Assembly (NCBI GenBank): GCA_964019415.1 | Contig: OZ025869.1 | Span: 6,396,882-6,460,881, forward strand | Origin: Ianthella basta | Taxonomy: Eukaryota > Porifera > Demospongiae > Verongiida > Ianthellidae | Length of the DNA: 64,000 nucleotides | Direction of reading: 5' to 3' | In this document: piece after piece, positions 9,601 to 64,000 of the stretch | Numbering within the stretch: the first letter of the stretch is position 1 | Layout: each line of letters opens with the position of its first letter | Notes under the pieces: model-generated | Databases searched by the model: none | Seen by the model: only the letters and a program-made list of their open reading frames with translations | Told to the model about the DNA's origin: nothing | Position numbers and translations under genes: made by a program

Positions 9601-10200
9601 AGTTAATATTTGCATGCATGGTGATGTACTTTGTACAGTTTGTAGTTTAGTGCATGAAAGTATTAGCTACGCAGTCAACCACTCACCAAGTAGTTGAAGT
9701 TTTCCTTGTAGAATTTCTCCTGCATGACATTAAGTCTTGACACTTCAATATCAACGTGATTTAGCTCAAGAATTCACCTTATGTTAGCACTTCATTGTGG
9801 ATATCAGCACAAATGCCGAAAGATTTAGCTATGTACGGTTTAGCTAGTACGTAGCTACTTCGCCAAAAGAGTCTTTTTTTACTCTCAGGCCCTCTCGTAC
9901 ACTTACAGGACAACTTTGTAGAAACCGCAGCCACCTCATCCCAATACCTGAAGAGCCTCAGGAAGACACCGGAGAGCGATTCTCCACCCAATCTCGTACT
10001 GGAACTCACACCATACCACCTTCCAGACTTACGTACTGGAGTAAGGGAGATGTGGCATAAGCTGAACACTAACTATGTAGTGTTAAAATTACTGACTGTT
10101 ACTAGTCATAGCTGTGTTACTATCTTAGTCATGTTAAGTGTTGATTGTGTATCATCTTAGACAATGCTCTTTGTTGTACTGCTGGTTGAGTAATAAGTGT
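9601..10200. repeat. Deleted copy of 23.8-25.3 kb
   Basis: 9601-9725 matches 23836-23955 (including the exon end coding MQEKFYKENFNYL on the minus strand), and 10033-10170 matches 25168-25290. The sequence between these blocks is deleted or replaced relative to the longer copy. A minus-strand open frame at 9779-10069 is not recognisable. Confidence 0.75.
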
Positions 10201-10499
10201 TGCTGTTGGCGATGTAACTGCGGACGTTCCCCATAGTATTCTATAAGAACCATCATCCCATACTGTCACCAATCTTGTGAGCACATGGAATGGGCACGTT
10301 TTGCACCAAAAAGTACCGCCTATGCCTCAGCTTAATCATCTTCCCATGTTCTGTGGACGTAAATGAAGCAGTGACGCAGTAAGCATTCCACCAGGGCCAC
10401 CATTTCGCTGTCTCACATTCAGCACATGCGTGCGGTATAGTGCAGAATATATATTCCGCTCCACTAATTATAGGTGCTGCCTGATATTTCCAATGCACA

Positions 10500-10592
10500 A
10501 GGGCGCTTACAATTAGAACGAGAAAAATAGAGTACGCCTTAGGGGGCGCTTTAAATGAGGCTGAGCCTATATGAGAAATGATACGGTACTTC
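10500..10592 (-). mobile_element. Solo end of the TIR element found complete at 42.57-43.40 kb
   Basis: Reading GGGCGCTTACAATTAGAACG through GGGGGCGCTTTAAATG to ATACGGTA, this matches the reverse complement of the left terminus of the 42.57-kb element at roughly four bases in five. The outermost ATACGG terminus is preserved, as is the paired GCGC-rich subterminal block. Confidence 0.7.
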
Positions 10593-10619
10593 CCTCAAGC
10601 TCCAAACATTCAGAGCTGG

Positions 10620-10715
10620 CCGGCCAATCATTGCTCATTGTGGTTGTACAGATGTCTCAATTTCTTTTATTCTCAGTTGTATGAAACCCTGTATTGAATT
10701 GAATTGAAGTGCTGT
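10620..10715 (+). repeat. Probable LINE 3' end with TTGAA-type tail
   Basis: AT-rich sequence ending TATTGAATTGAATTGAAG, the sort of short tandem tail found at the 3' ends of CR1/RTE-like LINEs. No coding sequence is attached. Weak call. Confidence 0.35.
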
Positions 10716-10795
10716 CGTTGTCTAAAACCATGAATTCTAGCAGTTCCTTGTAATCTTGCCTGTGTGGATGTACTCACAATGACTATAAAATACTA
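10716..10795. repeat. Segment duplicated at 26,811-26,880
   Basis: GTGCTGTCGTTGTCTAAAAC through TTGCCTGTGTGGAT matches 26811-26880 with a few substitutions. It is the third block of the deleted copy of the 19.5-26.9 kb region. Confidence 0.75.
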
Positions 10796-11029
10796 GATTC
10801 TGTACATGGTTTTCTGTTCCTTTCCTCTGAGCAGCAACCATTTATTCTTTTCGCACACGTACAGGTTATACATCTTAAATGCGCTAAATATGGCGGCAAT
10901 GCAACACCTACATACGGTTACAGGTTCCACATTACAGGCATTTATAATATCTTAAGGTCTTTAATACCTAGGAGTTCCCCCTTGAATGATGCTCCCATGC
11001 ATTTTTGTGGCCTTTAATCAACAAAGAGC
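10796..11029. other. Intergenic, nothing recognised
   Basis: AT-rich sequence without repeats or coding signal that I can support. Confidence 0.4.
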
Positions 11030-11351
11030 TGGTTATTGTGATGCTGTGACATGGAGCAATCCTGAAATTGATCAGCAGAAAGATGCAGCAGCACTTTCAG
11101 AGACAAACTGTAGCTGTGACAGGAAAGGCAAAACTGACCCGACTGCTTGCTTCCAAGACTCCCATGCTAGCAAGTGCCTTTGTTATCTGAAAAAACGTGC
11201 GCGGCCAAATGCAGATGTAAGAATTGCCTAAATCCATATGGGCAGAGAGTCTGCAACACTGGTGTTACTAGTATAATTAATTCACAAAAGCACACGTGTC
11301 CAATGAAATGCAGAGCCATTCACTGCGTGGAACAAAAGGGGAAACATTCAT
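11030..11351 (+). pseudogene. CXC (tesmin/TSO1-like) cysteine-rich domain fragment with a frameshift
   Basis: The first frame reads SETNCSCDRKGKTDPTAC then SKCLCYLKKR. After a six-A run at about 11190-11195 the next frame continues CAAKCRCKNCLNPYGQRVC. The joined pattern (CxC, then SxCxCxxxxxxC, then CxCxNCxNPYGxR) is that of the CXC fold seen in tesmin/MSL2-type proteins and in some mobile-element proteins of cnidarians and sponges. One missing or extra A would restore the frame, so either a sequencing error or a pseudogene is possible. There is no neighbouring exon to tell which gene it came from. Confidence 0.55.
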
Positions 11352-11529
11352 GAAAGAAGCAGGTGATCATTACTAGAATGAACCTGAAAGGAGGGTGACA
11401 TACGTGCCAGACTGTCCTAAAGATGATTAAAAGTTGCCCCCTTGCCTTGTAAGTAGCACAAATGGCTATTCTAAAAACCACCACTCCTCAAAAGATTAAT
11501 CAGCAACTACCAAAGTAGCAGCTTACATA
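11352..11529. other. Intergenic, nothing recognised
   Basis: Short AT-rich spacer between the CXC fragment and the repeat at 11530. Confidence 0.4.
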
Positions 11530-11708
11530 CATGTGCAATGTACTGAGTACACTGCACTGAAGAGCCCCAAACAGGGCGAAACAGCCTCAGTAGCTGTCTG
11601 CAGTTCTCTATCTACGTGTGGTGGATATGTGCTTGGTATACATGCTCTTGCATGTCAGAACTGTATGCCTGCAATGTCCGCCTTAATGTCACAATGCAGC
11701 CCTGCATG
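11530..11708 (+). repeat. Dispersed repeat coding EYTALKSPKQGET, copy 1
   Basis: The left half (11537-11645) matches the reverse complement of 27900-28010. The right half (11630-11708) matches the reverse complement of 17519-17597. The plus frame reads EYTALKSPKQGETASVAVC. Three partial copies in the window mark a dispersed repeat of unknown class. Confidence 0.8.
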
Positions 11709-12393
11709 GCACCCTTGACCATTTGTGAATTATGACTACAACCCTGTTTGGCATAACACAGCATAAATTTTATATAAACATTACAGCCAATAACAAGCCA
11801 ATAGTGTGTGTGTCTATTCTGAATGTATCACAGTTTTGAATTACACTACTGGGAATTGAGGAGGGATAACATTCTGGACCAATCAGATTTAGGCTAACTT
11901 TGGACGAATGAGAATTAAGCTCTGAGGGCCAATCATATTTGAGCTATGAGGGACAGCTACAGTATAAGAAGCCCTGTGTCCTGGCATTTGATAAGTCCAC
12001 TGAGACACCAACCAAGCAAGAGATGCCAAACAAGACAGAGACCAAGACCAAGATGACCAAGAACCTAATATCGATCATAGTGGATGACGTTGTAGCCTGT
12101 GATGACAGTATTACACTGGTACTGTCTAAACCAGTGAGCTGCAAGTCCCTGGTTTCCCAAACTGAGACAATCAGGGGCCAGGGCTATATGAAGGACAAGA
12201 CCCTTTTTTGTTCTGGGAAGGAAGTGAGTCAGGTTTGGGCTAGGGTATATAACCTTAGATTAAAAGGTATGGGATTAGGCACAAGGCCATAGGAGCAGAA
12301 TGGACTTCATGTAGTTTAGTAGCATTCATACCTGCATTGATGAGTTCATGGAATGTTCTTGCAACTTCTCCCGGCCTCTCTTTAAATTATATA
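11709..12393 (+). other. Possible upstream exon region, unrecognised
   Basis: Contains an open frame at 11939-12292 (KPCVLAFDKSTETPTKQEMP...). Its direction agrees with the terminal exon at 12394, but I do not recognise it and see no convincing splice sites. Confidence 0.2.
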
Positions 12394-12670
12394 GGTGAAG
12401 CAGGACATTGCTAAAGAATGTTCAGTGAAGGTGGTGCCACTCATGGAAGAAGTTTATACCTTCTATAATGAGGAGGGTGCAGCAATGGCTGAAGGGAGCT
12501 TGCACCCTGAAAGAGAACGGTTTCATGGAAGGAAAGTGAATGCTGACCATGTAGTGGTCAGTATCGAGGCGATTTTTGACAATGGGGTCAGTCTGTATCC
12601 GGACCCGATGGAAGAGGACAATGTACTATGTTTGGGACAGTTTGCCCTGTACATCGAGACTGCAAAGTAA
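12394..12670 (+). CDS. Putative terminal exon of an unrecognised protein
   Basis: A pyrimidine-rich tract and AG (TTTAAATTATATAG) precede an acidic open frame, VKQDIAKECSVKVVPLMEEV...LCLGQFALYIETAK, ending at TAA 12670. An AATAAA lies at 12669-12674, overlapping the stop. Splice acceptor, compositional coherence and polyadenylation signal together suggest a real last exon. No family is recognised. Confidence 0.35.
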
Positions 12671-13490
12671 ATAAATGACTTGTGATACATAATAATTTAG
12701 CGAGTGAGTTATTTTGATCGTAGATATACGTAGTTTGCTAAAGTCCTATCACATGAAGTTGCAAGTCTGCCCACACGTTGAATGAAACAACAGTGACCAT
12801 CAACAAGCTGTTCCATACAGTGCGGTATCTGGATGATGTTGAAGAGGCAAAGCTATAGTGAGATTCATTACTAGCAGTTCTGAAACTGGCTGGATACAGC
12901 TGCACCAAACAAGATAATATCTGTATGGTGCAAAGATTGTGCGACCACAAAGGCCTGCAATTGCAGGAATCTACTGGGTGGTGGACTTCCATTCAGAAGT
13001 GGCAACTGACCCTTGGCTGCCATGAGGTGTGCTGAGAGCATTGCACGCACCAGGGTCATTGCCTCTGACAGTGATATTCTCGAGAAGTATTACATGTGAT
13101 ATCCCAAAGTATATATAATGCAAATACAAACAAGAGTGTCTTCTTTACCTTTAATATAGTTTCTGTATACTCTGCCATTTTGTGCGACTAGTGATTCGGG
13201 ACTTTAGTTGCAGCTACAAATGATGGAAAACCTAGGTAAAGAAAGCTATTGTACTGATATAATTATGTCCAAAATCACACATCATACAGCTTACCTCGCG
13301 ACCATCCGAGATCCAATCATGGTTGTTGTGGTGTACAAGCACCTACAGCTGTGGGCGGAAAAGAGCTGTTTCAGTCTGCTTCCCGCAGCAAACCGCAAAT
13401 CCTTCAAGAGGCTGGAAGTGATGTGGCGTTCCAGATAACCCTCCTCTGAGCCGGAAGAGGGTCATTCGTGACCTTCAGAACAACTCATCT
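12671..13490. other. Intergenic, weak open frames only
   Basis: Open frames such as 13208-13438 (+) have no recognisable domain. No repeat structure seen. Confidence 0.3.
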
Positions 13491-14100
13491 CAAAAGCTGC
13501 TTCTAAACAGCACCAGGGGAAATTCATGAGGGAATTGTGATGTCAAGCTGCCCTCCATGAAGATCTGTCAAACCGCTGGTTGAAGAAAGGCCAACTCCGA
13601 AGCACTGCTGAAGCCCAGATTTAGCTGCTCAGAATGACTGTCAGGCAGGCACATTCTCAGCCAATGCCAACCAAAGGGGTACAACCTCTATTTGGAACGG
13701 CATAATCATGCTCTGCTAGCGGTCTACCATGCATGACCTCTGCACTCACTACAGCTTTGAAGTGACGCCTTGATGGCGGGAACTCGAATCTTTGCCTGTC
13801 TGTGAAAACCAACGGGCGAAGATTCTCTGGGACATCCCCATCCCAATGGACAGAGACATTGTGGCCCGTCATCCAGACATCTTTCTCCAGGGCAAGGGAA
13901 ACAGGCGGCTGTATCTCATCGAGATGGCAGTTGCTTGGGACTCTATCCTGGCAGAGAGAAGAGCCAAGAAGCTGTCCAAGTTGATGGATCTACGTGCCGA
14001 CCTGAGGAGAGAGTACCCTGGTTATCGTCGGCTGGACACAGCAGTGCCAGTGGTAATTGGGGGGGCTGGGTACGGTCACACACTAATTGGTGAGTGACTT
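13491..14100 (+). pseudogene. C-terminal remnant of a second retroelement family (nuclease-like)
   Basis: The clear part is 13792-14097: CENQRAKILWDIPIPMDRDI, then ARHPDIF, LYLIEMAVAWDS, AERRAKKLSKLMDL and VPVVIGGAG. This ILWDxxIxTDR...RPDI...IDxAVPxD...KxxKYxDL...VPVVVGxLG order is the C-terminal PD-(D/E)XK-like region of RT-encoding elements common in cnidarians and molluscs. It is distinct from the R2-clade-like copies here. Upstream (13640-13790) NGIIMLC...MHDLCTHYSFE fits the preceding N-x-x-H-xx-LC region with stops and shifts. RT itself is absent. Confidence 0.65.
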
Positions 14101-17689: not shown

Positions 17690-18799
17690 AGCGTGGAAAG
17701 TTGGAGTCCTTCGGTTACTGGGATAGAAGAAGGCTGAAGAGGACCCCAATAATCCCAAGAACCTTCGCCCCATCGCCTTGACCAGCTGCATTGGCAAAGT
17801 GTTCACCAGCCTACTTAAGGACCGCTGGATGGCTTACATGAGATCCAACAGCTACCTAAACACCTCCGTGCAGAAGGCCTTTATATCGATGGGGTACCAG
17901 GATGCACGGAGCACCACCTAAAGCCTCTTTCAATGTTGTAGGAGGCGAGAAGGAAGCACAGATCCCTGCATGTGTGCTGGCTGGATTTGGCAAACGCGTT
18001 CGGCAGTGTACACCACAGCTTGATCAGGTACTCCTTGGAACACTACCATGCTCCACCAGAGATGGACATCACCACCAAGACTTGGCAATCAGCCCCATCC
18101 ACCTCCAGCTGGGTGTCTTTCAGGGCGACCCATTGTCAGTGCTGGTGTTCAACACAGTGATGAACACCATGGTGGACACCATCACCAAGGAGCACTCAGC
18201 ACTGGGGTACAGGTCGGACGCATCCCAGAGTCGCACCAACTTGTTGCAGTACGCGGATGACACCTCATTGCTGGCTGACGGGCCGTCTTCCTGTCAGACG
18301 CTCCTCACTGTCATTGAGGCCTGGCTGAGCTGGTCAGGAATGAAGGCCAACGTGCCTAAGTGTGTGTGCCTGGCCATCCAGGCCTCCACTGCCAAGCCCT
18401 ACGACCCCAAGCTGACGCTGGATGGACAGCAGATCCCCTTCATTGGAGACACCACGTTTCACTTCCTTGGTGCTCTAGTGAACATCTCTGGAACAAACAC
18501 ACCAAGGGAGGACCTCTGTGAGAAACTGACAACCCTCCTACAGAAGGTGGATGCTACACTGCTCTCCAGACAGCAGAAGCTACTCCTGTACAAGGTTGAC
18601 CTGGGACCTCTCTATCTCCGACCTCCCCATCTCCTGGCTGCAGAACACCCTGCAGCCAATCGCCACCAGGTTCCTCAAGAGGTGGAGTGGTCTAGCCAGG
18701 TCAGCTGACCCCAACTGCTTGTTTCTCCCCAAGTCCAACGGGGGCCTGGAGCTGTCCCACTGGAAAGAGCCTGCCACCAGCCATGTTGCTGCTGACTAA
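17690..18799 (+). pseudogene. R2-clade-like reverse transcriptase, copy with YADD box
   Basis: RT motifs in order: NPKNLRPIALTSCIGKVFT (about 17747), SYLNTSVQKAF, WLDLANAFGSVHHSLI carrying the first catalytic aspartate (about 17975-18025), GVFQGDPLSVLVFNTVMNT (about 18110-18170), QYADDTSLLADG carrying the catalytic DD (about 18247-18282), SGMKANVPKCVCLA, then the thumb and linker to GLARSADPNCLFLPKSNGG. The YADD box and both catalytic positions are intact, but at least three frame changes and a truncation after GGLEL inactivate it. The knuckle and endonuclease are deleted, and the element goes straight to its 3' UTR. Confidence 0.88.
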
Positions 18800-48918: not shown

Positions 48919-49902
48919 TTAATGTCCTGAAGGCGCTCCATCTGCCTTTATGACGTCTGGCATCACCTTCTGGAGGTGATCAATATACCTGCAGCATACC
49001 TGGGGTGTCACAGTGCTCCAAAATTTCCTGAGGCCCTCTTTCAGCTCTGGCATATTCCTGGGCTTGTGCTTGTTTCTTAAGAAATTCTTCATGGAGCCCC
49101 ACACTTTCTCGATTGGGTTGAGATCAGGGCTTTCCACCGGGCTCCTCCACCATGTTATTTTGTTCCTCACGAAAAAGTCCTGTATATACCGGCTTGTATG
49201 CTTTGGGTCATTATCTTGATACAGTCTATGGCTGTCTGGGTATGATTTTCTGAGAAAAGGGATCAGAGCTGTTGAGAGAATGTCACCACATCTTGTTGCT
49301 GTCATTATGCCTGCAAACATCACGAGCTGTGTGGCACCTCTCTTTGAAATCCCCGCCCAGACATGAATCTTTGGAGGATGTTTGTGCCTGTATTTGAGCT
49401 TCCGTGGAGTATTCTTCTTGCGAAAGGACTTCCTCCTGTGGCTTTCCAACTGCACAGTACATTCATCTGTGAAGATGACATCACCAAAGCGTTCCTCAGC
49501 CTCGAGACATTTGTTGACCCAGACAACTCTTTTTTCTTTATTTGCATCGCGAATAGCCTGGCAATAGCGGGCAGTTGTGAAGGTCCATCCCAGTTCACTT
49601 TCCACTCCAAATCTGGCAGCAAGCAGTGTTTTCAACATTGATGCTGTATACTCATCATTCAGGGCCATTGCTTCATCGATGAGGCAATAATGGCTTTGGG
49701 GAATTGTTGATTTTCGTCCAATTCGTGGCCGGTCTCATACTGATCCTGTTTCTTCCCATTGGGTAATTGTGTTCTTGATTGTTTGGACTGTTGTGAAGAT
49801 TCCTTCCTGGGCCAATATTCGTTTGATTTCTGTCATTGTCCTGCTCTTGGACTGGTTCCACAGGGAAAGAATTCGCTGTCTTTGGTAGTTGCTTAAAGGC
49901 AT
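48919..49902 (-). pseudogene. Tc1-like DD34E transposase, nearly intact (one stop)
   Basis: Reading from ATG 49902: MPLSNYQRQRILSLWNQSKS (N-terminal HTH), ITQWEETGSV, then a TGA at 49736-49734 where an Arg codon is expected, then DRPRIGRKSTIP (GRPR-type motif). After that the frame is uninterrupted to the stop at 48919, 327 codons in all, a normal Tc1 length. The catalytic triad is visible: D in IFTDECTVQ, D in YQDNDPKHTS and E in LNPIEKVWG, with 34 residues between the second D and the E. Terminal inverted repeats were not found by eye. The single stop is consistent with a young, recently inactivated copy or an error. Confidence 0.92.
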
Positions 49903-59261: not shown

Positions 59262-61377
59262 AGTGCCAAAGCCTTCATGACATCTTCACATCTTCATGCA
59301 TCACTTGTTTCATTGGGTACTGCGGCCACATGTCTGTGCGTGCACTGAATGTTCCTGGTCAGAGTGCGGAAGAACAGAAGTTGGCGACACTGTAAAGCAC
59401 TCAAAAGTACTACTGAGGCAGCGTGGAGAGGATAGGAAGCAACTTTAGCCGTGTCTTACGGCAAGATTACCAGTTCCAATGCAGCTCCCCAATGGAACGC
59501 ACTAAAATTAAAATCGGGGGCAATTCTTTTTTGGTAAACTACTTACTACGTGCTTTCAATGGCGTACAGCATATTTACTGCACATGCCCTCGGGTCTTGT
59601 GCAATAGATACCGTACACCATTGAAGGCGTGTAGTAACTACTACTTGTTACTCTTATTTTACAAGTATCAGGGTACAGAAATAGTAATTTAGCGGCTAGT
59701 GTGTGTATGTAGGACTGTAGAAGGTACAGCATGGAATTATAATATGTTACATTGTACTAGACACTGCTGTGATAATTATCTATGCACTTTTTTCTGCTGA
59801 CGACCTCAGTGGGCCTTCTACATTTATGATGAACAACTGCAATGAGATACTGTGAGCAGCATGGATGTACGATGATGAAAACAATAATTGTAATTTGAAT
59901 ACTGCATGCTTTTGCAATGTACATACATACGTCATGTTGCAAAGTTATACAACTGCAAAGATCACTGGACAATGGAAGTCAGTTTAATGAAAGTTACATA
60001 TCTGTTTGTGGTAACCCAAAACTGACCATTTAGTGAAACTGAACAATAACCTACAGGAATACAAAGTGTAATTTAATAAATGGAGTAATCAGATGTATGT
60101 GAATACTGTTGACTAACTATGTAGAGTGTCATTTTCTTTTGCAGCTGTTGCATTTCCATTTTGTTTTCTTTGGTGGTGTCTTTGCCAAACATGTGCACAA
60201 GAGGTGTGATACCATCTCTGACAGTAGCTGCACAAGATACTTTTCTCAATTTCACCCATCTCATCTTGCATTCACAATCAGCAGTGAAAGCAAAACTGTG
60301 AAGCAAGGTATCTTACATTCACACATACTCATACACTGTACTTCCTATGTACATTCTTAAATTTGTCATCACTTATTGTACTCACATCACTTGGACGACA
60401 TTAGAAACCACATCCTGTATGTAGTGCACATGTATTGTGTGCATATACCTCAGATTCTGCCCACTCCGATGCGGGGAATCTTCTGTGCTCAACAGGTGAC
60501 TGCCTTGACCTGCAGTCACTACTATTGATCATTCTTAATGTTAGTGTTGGCTGTTCTTATTTTTTGTATGCATGCACGGTGCAGTTCACCTTGCAGTGAG
60601 GTTCTTCAAACAGGTATGCACAAAGGTGACGTGGATGTGTGTGTGCTCCACTTCATGGCTTTGAAGAGAGGCTGAAACAGCATGAAACGGTTACTTTGTG
60701 GTGTGCTAGGTAAGTATGTGAAGGGTTACTAGATTGCATCACTGTTGTCCTTGTGTAGTCTTCTTTATTATTTTGAAATGGACTATTTAGGGTGTCTATG
60801 TATGTTACATTCATTTCGTTGTATTATTGAATTTGAAGCCTATGTATTGTGTGGGCTGTGTTGGTGTTCAGTAGGTTCACATGGCTGTTTCCCCAATGTA
60901 AAATATGGCAACTTAGTTTTGACTTGGGAACTGGGCATTAATTGACGTACTAAGATCATGTGTAGCACGCAGCAAACACTTTAGGCATTTTTCTCTGCAA
61001 GTACTGAGGTAATGGGAAATCAGCATTTTGCGAAGGCTGACAGAACAGTGAGTAAGTTGTTGTTTGCCGTAAAGTCTGGCTTTGCATTCTTTTAACAGCA
61101 AAATCAGGGTGTATAGGTCGCAGGCTTAAACTGAGTGTAGCAGATGCCTCCGAGTTTTCCCACTAATGTGCTATGGTTCAGAAGAAAGCCCAAGAGTCAC
61201 TCCGTACGAGAATGCATTGACTGTTCTGCTGGCTTTTTCCTGGACTCATCTCTGAGCGCTTGTATTGAGGCTACATTGTATCATACACACCGTGTGCATG
61301 CATGCTAATATATTATTTTCTATAGGCATCACAGTTAATAAATTGAGCAGTTAGCTATTGTGTTAAATTGTGTGTTC
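59262..61377. other. Intergenic with one possible exon at 60,147-60,306
   Basis: 60147-60306 (+) is bounded by TTTCTTTTGCAG and AAG|GTATCTT and is open (LLHFHFVFFGGVFAKHVHKR), but it has no family and no partner exon. Elsewhere I see nothing. Confidence 0.25.
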
Positions 61378-61912
61378 TCACTTCTTCTTAGAATATGCTA
61401 TCAAGTCATCATCAAGTTTGACCAGTTCTGCCTGCAGCTTCTTCAGTGCACTTTTTTTGATCTTATACACCTTCCGTACAGATCCTGGAATGAGGGCAGC
61501 ATTTTGGCCATAAGGCTGGGCTTGTGGGAAGTCCTCGAGTTCTGTATTGGGTCCTGCCTCCCACTTTTCCTTGTACGCATAGTTGTCATCTGCCTCATCT
61601 GTATCTGTGTTGGCGCTATGCCATGCTTCATCAGCATCTGCACAAATGAATTGCATGTGTATAGCTAACAATGAAGTGTATTGTCTTTTGTCGGCATAGC
61701 TTGGCATGTGCTCACCTTGGAGACTGCCAGGGTCTAGCTTGCTGCTACTGCTACTCCTAGCAGGGCCTGCATATAATGATATTAGAGACACATGGTTAGA
61801 CATGTTTTAAACACATGCAAACACATGCACACTTACTGTCCAAGTCAAAAGCGATTGATTTAATGTGGTGCTTTTGAGGGGTTGCTGTTATCCACTCTTC
61901 ATCCTTTATCTT
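61378..61912 (-). CDS. Small multi-exon gene, acidic protein with basic tail
   Basis: Three exons on the minus strand: about 61912-61836 (KDEEWITATPQKHHIKSIAF, donor GTAAGT), 61768-61718 (GPARSSSSSKLDPGSLQ, acceptor ATTATATGCAG, donor GTGAGC) and 61637-61378 (ADEAWHSANTDTDEADDNYA then YKEKWEAGPNTELEDF, QNAALIPGSVRKVYKIKKSA then LKKLQAELVKLDDDLIAYSK, acceptor TTTGTGCAG). Consistent splice sites and an intact long last exon argue for a real gene. The C-terminus is a predicted basic/coiled helix. Function unknown. Confidence 0.55.
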
Positions 61913-61929
61913 TGCAACTGGTGTGTCAG

Positions 61930-62010
61930 GAACACACACGTGTACACATGTACACACACACGCACACTAGCTCACACACACACACACAACACAACACACG
62001 CAAGGATGTA
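61930..62010. repeat. CA/TGTACACA-rich microsatellite
   Basis: ACACACGTGTACACATGTAC followed by CA runs and CACAACACAACACA. Confidence 0.85.
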
Positions 62011-62095
62011 CACATGAATGGACATTCTCTGAGTTATACATCCATAGTTGTAGGCATACACGAGTATGCATAAATGCTTACACGTCAACCACTCT

Positions 62096-62190
62096 CACAA
62101 TCAAATTTGGCCAGTTGGGCCTGCTTTTTCTTCAGTGCATTTTTTTTATTTTATGTATCTACTCTCTGTACAAATCCAGGAATGAGGCAC
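62096..62190 (-). repeat. Diverged partial copy of the last exon at 61,395-61,500
   Basis: AATTTGGCCAGTTGGGCCTGC...TTCTTCAGTGCATTTTTTTT...CTCTGTACAAATCCAGGAATGAGG aligns with 61408-61498 at roughly three bases in four, interrupted by a CA array on the right. It is a non-functional exon duplicate. Confidence 0.75.
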
Positions 62191-62287
62191 ACACGCACGC
62201 ACGCACACACACGCACACACAACTCACGCATGCACAATCACACACAATGCACACAGGCACACACACACAAACACACAACTCATGCAT

Positions 62288-62331
<44 letters not shown>

Positions 62332-62345
62332 GCGCGCCAGGCATA
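62190..62345. repeat. (CA)n array
   Basis: CACGCACGCACACACACG... with a pure run at about 62287-62328, ending CGCGCGCG. Confidence 0.95.
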
Positions 62346-62998
62346 TGCATGTACACATGAATGGACATTCCCCGAGTTATGCTTTTCGTTCACAGTTGTA
62401 TGTATACACAAGCATGCATAATATAATTATACTTACACGTCACTCTTGCATGGCATGCATGCACACAGAGGTATTACAATTTTATATGCTACGCATTGCA
62501 TTCCATAGGATTGGTGCTTGCTTGGCGCTTATGCATGCACTTTGCAGAAATGACCCATGCAACCTGTCCATGCATGGGCATTCTTTTGAGAGTAGGAATT
62601 ACAACTGTGTATTATCATTATTATGTCACATGCATCAATCCATCTTTACTTGTGCAGTAAATGACTAAATAATATTAATTTTTGGACTTTATAACATCAC
62701 TTTGAAGTAAATTATATACATAATTTTGTATAATTATCATAATTCATCACTGATTCATGAATATAATATACGTATATTGTGCATGATATTAATATTGCAG
62801 CATCCATCATAATAATAATACAAACAACACATCCTAATAATACTTAATGCAGTGCATGCCTATCTAAAACTGCAATGCATGATACAAGAGTACAGTCCAT
62901 ACAGCAGCAGACCCAATTAATTGCATAATCAAGTTTCTGATCTTTGAGGGTGGTCTTCCTCAGTGCAGCTAGCTAGCGCTGTACTAAACATCCTGCAG
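62346..62998. other. Intron or intergenic, upstream of the RAG1-like exons
   Basis: AT-rich, no coding exon recognised. The last bases (CATCCTGCAG, 62989-62998) form the acceptor of the first visible RAG1-like exon, so at least one further 5' exon is expected somewhere upstream. Confidence 0.4.
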
Positions 62999-64000
62999 TG
63001 ATACATAAGAGGACAGACAGACTTCCTTTGTGCAGTAGTTGGCCATGGATCAGCAGAGACAACCTCCTGCATCTTTGCAGAATTTGTGGGCAGTGCTTTG
63101 GCAGAGACCGAATGAGAGTCACATACTTTACACAGGAATATGCTGAAAGGCTAGAGTCATCACTGATGGTGAATGTGAACCTGGACAAAGAGGACATACA
63201 CCTAAAAAAGTTTTGTAACACCTGCTACCGGGCCATGACGAGGTAAGAGGGTGCAATTACACAGTATACAGTGAAATTTCAAAATTACATAGTTTTGCAC
63301 CAGCCGTCATTATGGCATCGTCACTTTCTGCATAGTCATGAAGAGGCAAAAAGGATAGGCAACTACAGAATGATCAGCATAATAGTGGCAGAGTGGACAC
63401 AACACAGCAACAACTGTCAGACATGCGGGTAAACTGTCTAATGAACTATATACATGAGACATAACCATAACCACGAACATGATCATGCATGTTCTCGCAC
63501 GTACATGCAGCCTCTCTTCAAATCAACTGAAAGGGGGTAGACCCAGAAAAAATGTGTAAAGGAAGGGGGTGTGCGTCTCAAGATACAAATGTTGCGGGGC
63601 TGATAAGCTTTATATCAGAAATGAGCAGCAATATTCCATCCCAGAAGCCACAGGAGATGGACTATCTCGACACAGATTTCCTCCTGCCACCACCACCACC
63701 AATCACCATCACATCTGTGACCTGTCCATTTTGCCTGGCGGTACTAGAAGTGCCGATATCACTGTCATGTGGGCACACAGTGTGCAGAGATTGCCTAGTG
63801 AAAGCCTTTCATTACATGCCTACTCACCCCAGATGTTCATGCTGTTCCACTGCCATTGGGAGCACAGCTGACATCAGACCGCCACCAGATTTAATTCTGG
63901 AGGTGATTCATTCACTTAGTATGAAGTGCTGTAAGCTGCAGTGTGAAGCCATTGTCAACCTACAGAGTTTGAGGCAGCACTATAAAGCACCACATACACC
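62999..64000 (+). CDS. RAG1-like N-terminal zinc-binding region (partial gene, runs off window)
   Basis: Exon 1 (62999-63242): LLHLCRICGQCFGRDRMRVT ... DIHLKKFCNTCYRAMT, donor AG|GTAAGA. Exon 2 (63336-63428), acceptor TTTCTGCATAG: HEEAKRIGNYRMISIIVAEW, THS-like NNCQTC, donor GG|GTAAAC. A short exon 3 (63511-63555) gives LKGGRPRKN. Exon 4 (from about 63608 or 63629): PPPPPITITSVTCPFCLAVL, LSCGHTVCRDCLVKAF, RCSCC (C3HC4 RING), then ILEVIHSLSMKCCKLQCEAI and LRQHYKAPH (C2H2). All visible junctions are phase 2 and keep one open frame. Vertebrate RAG1 has the same order: HLCRIC...FCxxCW, W-x-x-C-x-I-C, RING, then K-C-x4-C...H-x4-H. In RAG1 this region dimerises, binds zinc and carries E3 ubiquitin ligase activity. 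Whether a catalytic core follows is not visible. It could be RAG1-like, a ProtoRAG/RAG-like transposon gene, or an N-terminal-only (N-RAG-TP type) mobile element gene. Confidence 0.78.

Follow-up and report, generated by a model that had tools for sequence, protein, structure and literature searches.

A probable Chapaev-type transposon with a RAG1-type transposase layout, found as a decayed copy and at related loci in the sponge Ianthella basta

Introduction

Chapaev transposases that combine a RING domain with Chapa, a domain held to be equivalent to the RAG1 N-terminus, are already in print (Kapitonov & Koonin 2015, PMC4411706, citing Kapitonov & Jurka 2007). As described in the sections of that paper drawn on here, the RING follows Chapa and the DDE core is distantly related to Transib; no sponge is among the species in the legend to its Figure 2. 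The traits of the CACTA-Mirage-Chapaev-Transib group, as set out in the relevant part of PMC12730594, are C(2)C and H(3-4)H motifs, mostly CA..TG ends and 2-5-bp target site duplications. Here we analyze a 64,000-nucleotide stretch of the Ianthella basta genome (the window; positions 6396882-6460881 of contig OZ025869.1, C2 below), whose right-hand end is very probably the 5' half of a decayed cut-and-paste transposon of the Chapaev type, encoding a transposase laid out like RAG1.

Elements of this kind were earlier proposed to be distant cousins of the RAG1 ancestor. Two views of RAG1 origin have been put forward: the joining of a Transib core and an independent N-terminal element, as outlined in PMC8355894, or descent from an ancient transposase already holding both parts, as outlined in PMC4411706 (Kapitonov & Koonin 2015). 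TransibSU and ProtoRAG (BbRAGL, 6b40) have 5-bp duplications and a RAG2L partner, and the account of TransibSU given in PMC4411706 has it without a RING. The Aplysia element N-RAG-TP, in the description taken from PMC8355894, is a transposable element composed entirely of sequence resembling the RAG1 N-terminus.

Results and Discussion

RAG1-type modules at the end of the window

Positions 61001-64000 of the window were read directly, at the level of single letters. A first-pass annotation made from the sequence alone had placed four modules here in the order and spacing of RAG1. Their positions and order stand (Table 1), but the spacing had to be corrected: the second module reads W-x6-CxxC, not W-x8. 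The RAG1-type character of the region is borne out by exon 1, which scores 27.2 bits against Pfam RAG1_imp_bd (cut-off 23.3; E 3.6e-6), and by a family profile (A1) that matches RAG1 over N-terminal residues 100-386. When the exon encoding the RING and zinc finger was compared with PDB sequences, RAG1 chains took ranks 1 to 4 (E 7.5e-8 to 4.4e-7) among 97 matches at E<=1, the best being 1rmd (7.5e-8) over residues 45-152, finger included. In this comparison RAG1 ranks ahead of TRIM5, if narrowly. Judged from sequence, exon 1 would encode Chapa, the RAG1 N-terminal-like zinc domain typical of Chapaev, and the RING would lie 3' of it as in two Chapaev subgroups. The junctions 63242/63336 and 63428/63511 are GT-AG and in phase 2, and both are found again in the gene models of copies B and C described below.

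One predicted gene carries both halves in a related copy

The RING exon served as query in a six-frame search of the genome (209 Mb, 96 contigs). At E<=0.01, 48 matches were obtained; nine of these (E 1.2e-104 to 2.4e-11) are evidently related, while the remaining 39 lie at 1.6e-6 or weaker. The RAG1 profile match and the occurrence at nine genomic loci exclude chance as the source of the resemblance. Segments of 20 or 30 kb around the nine loci (copies A-I) were then compared at the protein level. Copies A, B, C, F and G share a conserved train of exons 3' of the RING, in the same order; copy D is nearly identical to C, and H to G. For copy B, a model with 13 exons and 12 GT-AG introns gives a 1012-amino-acid open reading frame (ORF), open from end to end, in which the N-terminal half and the core are joined.

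Taken alone, the window shows just N-terminal modules, as would a mobile element of the N-RAG-TP type separate from any core. N-RAG-TP does share the RAG1 N-terminal-like sequence (PMC8355894, in the part cited above), but here the core lies in the same gene. With core exons in order in five copies, and in D and H by near-identity, and with a single modelled ORF linking both halves in copy B, we reject this explanation as scarcely credible. The annotation had advised extending the sequence rightward in search of a core, and this proved sound: remnants of exons 4-8 and 12 of the RAG1-fold DDE core lie downstream of the window edge, and copy B holds the core complete.

The core and its relatives

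In copy B the core residues are D526, D596, the CLWC motif at 615-618, H930/H935 and E952/E956. Across the family alignment, D526 is invariant and D596, H930, H935, E952 and E956 are nearly so. This is a DDE core with C(2)C and H(3-4)H motifs, as in Chapaev. The predicted core fold of a Lytechinus relative (P0003) is closest to RAG1. Vertebrate RAG1 has the same order of N-terminal modules, the core fold, the CxxC and Hx4H ligands and the DDE residues in common with this family; it differs in that its core goes unmatched by sequence profile, whereas the element described here is mobile, leaves 4-bp duplications and has no RAG2 in sight.

The proteins of Ephydatia, Branchiostoma and Lytechinus filed under PF06918 (DUF1280) belong to the same transposase family, PF06918 being listed for 12 of 12 homologues. 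Unlike the window element, only two of these (P0005 and P0012) have RING models listed. Those that bear names are called "hypothetical" or "uncharacterized", apart from P0005, which carries a RING-ligase name. Relatives are thus present in another sponge, Ephydatia muelleri. A silicatein-type motif, sought as a sign of a sponge host, gave 0 matches. A 14-row tree confined to relatives, without Chapaev references, gave no settled order among the I. basta rows, Ephydatia and P0005. The full-length model of P0005 has a mean pLDDT (the structure predictor's confidence score) of 62.5, with low confidence at the N-terminus. Scanning three relatives against NCBIfam returned nothing over cut-off, and the Pfam RAG1 core model PF12940 found no match in the genome, the controls being silent too.

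Terminal repeats and target site duplications

Copies C and D have terminal inverted repeats (TIRs) starting with CACGGCTGTTTCG. A second version, starting with CACGGGTGTTTTT, occurs at both ends of H, at the 5' end of I and at the 3' end of G; damage has affected the 5' end of G. The termini of C, D and H read CACGG...CCGTG and hence conform to the 5'-CA..TG ends of Chapaev; they begin with CAC, which bears on the TIRs resembling recombination signal sequences that the first-pass annotation had proposed to look for. In the genome the 13-mer CACGGCTGTTTCG occurs 188 + 215 times, as against zero for a reversed control. In the window copy a degenerate version of this repeat is the likely left end of the element (Table 1); similarity to copy B starts at 60886.

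Twenty-nine pairs of plus and minus TIRs were chosen by eye among the matches listed, and flanks were compared for 20. Exact 4-bp duplications, in agreement with the value for Chapaev, were seen in 15 of the 20, with 0.37 expected from mismatched pairs; of the other five, four lack a duplication and one fits only 2 bp. Because flanks are shared by two of the pairs, the independent count is 14 of 19. Copies G and H also have 4-bp duplications. The 5-bp duplications anticipated by the annotation were not the pattern: a single pair, in a run of C, fits 5 bp as well as 4, and copy D adds one more.

Between copies C and D identity is 99.1% along 9.1 kb and 98.0% along another 1.8 kb, with the inverted repeats marking both limits of the similarity. 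With C and D so alike, the family appears to have moved recently. If so, direct study of its ends, stagger and RING would be possible.

Assignment to Chapaev and the RAG-like alternative

Altogether, the element has the group traits given in the cited part of PMC12730594, and neither the 5-bp duplication pattern nor, in the exon-by-exon search described below, a RAG2 partner was found; we therefore class it as Chapaev-type with a RAG1-type layout. Relative to Chapaev as presented in the sections of PMC4411706 used here, what is added is a record, from one genome, of the zinc finger, the TIRs, the 4-bp duplications and a second ORF on the minus strand.

Several observations weigh against this assignment. 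The core whose fold was predicted comes from a Lytechinus relative that shares 38% identity with copy B, and not from the I. basta genome, and profile A1 gives no match to the RAG1 core by sequence. For the RING-zinc finger exon, TRIM5 (E 8.1e-7) comes close behind the RAG1 chains, and homologue P0005 matches RNF4 (E 9.6e-7) ahead of RAG1 (5.6e-6). The duplication flanking copy D is of 5 bp (ATATG), and copy C has none. Finally, the value of 4 bp for Chapaev target site duplications is taken from general background.

A different reading would make this a RAG1-RAG2-like transposon (TransibSU/ProtoRAG) in a non-bilaterian, with a RAG2 partner and 5-bp duplications. The fold of the relative's core, the RAG1-like N-terminal region and the ends starting with CAC all fit such an element, but the duplications are of 4 bp and the family profile gives no hit to the RAG1 core. 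As for the RAG2-like neighbor that the annotation had suggested seeking, an exon-by-exon search of the genome, which is weak for split genes, gave one match of 19.9 bits, below the cut-off of 21. Besides, the gaps between TIR and transposase in copy H measure only 0.86 kb and 0.72 kb, apart from two introns of about 0.8 kb. We consider this reading very unlikely: the fold and residues support cut-and-paste working of the RAG1/Transib kind, not the status of a RAG-like element. A canonical Transib, with no domain besides the core and 5-bp duplications, was rejected in view of the extra N-terminal domains and the 4-bp duplications.

As a Chapaev-type element, it would carry the whole RAG1 layout in one protein: Chapa, W-x6-CxxC, a basic GGRP stretch, RING, zinc finger, an LPTGGxP link and a DDE core with CxxC and Hx4H. 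By analogy with RAG1 and Transib, we envisage that transposase subunits bind TIRs beginning CACGG(C/G)TG, that the DDE core nicks and then excises the element, and that insertion with a 4-bp stagger generates the 4-bp duplications. The RING may regulate the transposase through ubiquitylation, as reported for RAG1.

Decay of the window copy

The annotation had read the exons as intact, with no interrupting stop and three phase-2 junctions, and had suggested that the copy may be functional. Only the first two junctions hold. CRICG is not in frame with the ATG at 63045, two bases being missing relative to copy B, and the extra A in an A-run of exon 3 puts a TAA in frame. Since copy B is open straight through this stretch, the third intron (63555/63608-63629) was rejected. 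Further lesions lie beyond the window edge: an 82-bp deletion in exon 3 (relative to copy B), stop codons in exons 4 and 6, the interruption of exon 5 by a pogo-like transposase together with loss of the end of that exon, and a deletion running from exon 8 into exon 12. The catalytic exon 13 was not found in the 30 kb read. Exon differences from copy B number 30, 23 and 21 at codon positions 1-3 (575 sites each), while introns differ at 50 of 957 sites, a rate like that of the exons. Differences so evenly spread over codon positions, at the intron rate, argue against function, as do the frame breaks, stops and deletions. On the evidence of its sequence, the window copy is a relic that cannot make a working enzyme. 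An exon set that appears intact can thus be a dead copy, rescued on paper by an imagined intron.

Other copies are damaged as well. The tenth exon of copy C is frameshifted, and in copies H (+1) and D (-5) the frame breaks where the first catalytic D is encoded; the RING change of copy D is away from the zinc ligands. Exon 13 of copy G was not found. The two frameshifts at the first catalytic D fall in separate subfamilies, H lying on C1 near 8.085 Mb and D on C2 near 11.945 Mb; either coincidence or loss of function may account for them.

Copies B and C differ at 247, 166 and 385 sites for the three codon positions over 675 codons (54% amino-acid identity), and the third-position excess is a mark of selection on the protein. 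Such an excess, together with the open frame of B as against the damage in A, C, D and H, could mean that copy B is a domesticated gene, derived from such a transposase and still serving the host. Recently moved transposases, however, should show the same excess; copy B keeps TIR-like ends, its last exon is repeated many times in the genome, and further open copies may exist among E, F and I. We accordingly consider domestication very unlikely.

A search with the last, catalytic exon yields 69 matched stretches genome-wide (two at some loci), as against nine loci with a RAG1-like RING. Either most of the family lacks a RAG1-like N-terminus, or the N-termini of the other members are too diverged for the search. 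Truncated copy I (L050/L049), whose similarity to copy H stops at composite 9493, adjoins an open frame (composite 9848-13999) of at least 1384 amino acids that by eye resembles ankyrin repeats.

A putative second, divergent gene and other features

Inside the element a minus-strand ORF contains an exon-like stretch of a second gene. Copies B and C, which represent two diverged subfamilies, share 39% amino-acid identity in it across 59 residues. This stretch has 26 counterparts genome-wide at E<=0.1, several within short TIR-bounded elements of 1.1-2.8 kb (for example C1:11074658, C3:944302, C1:2905974 and C3:3547919). The ORF has no match in Pfam; it is a candidate for an accessory protein of the element.

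The existence of a copy whose single modelled ORF spans the whole layout, and of relatives that have both parts, favors the ancient-transposase view of RAG1 origin and offers material for its test. We suggest, tentatively and with more doubt than confidence, that this is a young family uniting a complete RAG1 layout in one transposase, a core fold nearer to RAG1 than to Transib and an undescribed divergent second gene. If true, the sponge and deuterostome relatives would imply that the N-terminus and core of RAG1 formed one protein before the sponge-bilaterian split and were not joined later from two elements.

Table 1. Features in and next to the window (window coordinates unless indicated).
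Feature	Position	Strand	Remarks
Degenerate 5' TIR of window copy (CACATGGCTGTTTC...CAACTTAGTTT)	60878..60925	+	Resembles CACGGCTGTTTCG ends of C/D
Exon 1, Chapa / RAG1 N-terminal zinc region (LCRICG...FCNTC)	63045..63242	+	RAG1_imp_bd match, comparison with copy B
Exon 2, W-x6-CxxC module	63336..63428	+	Homologous exon in copies B and C
Exon 3, KGGRP + RING + zinc finger	63511..64000, continues beyond window	+	One extra A near 63546-63552 breaks frame
C3HC4 RING	63723..63845	+	PF00097, 22.0 bits (cut-off 21); best PDB match RAG1 1rmd
Zinc finger (KCCKLQC...H...H) 3' of RING, RAG1 position	63924..63998	+	Alignment to RAG1
Pogo/Tigger-like transposase (DDE_1, HTH_psq, HTH_Tnp_Tc5)	L031:2749-3789, window ~64749-65789	-	In exon 5
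ORF with exon-like stretch of second gene, pointing away from transposase, inside element	61378..61806	-	
Tc1/mariner-type transposase ORF	48919-49734	-	271 amino acids open; DDE_3, 68.5 bits
Reverse transcriptase ORF	17860-18708	+	RVT_1, 54.8 bits

Elsewhere in the window are a Tc1/mariner-type transposase ORF and a reverse transcriptase ORF (Table 1).
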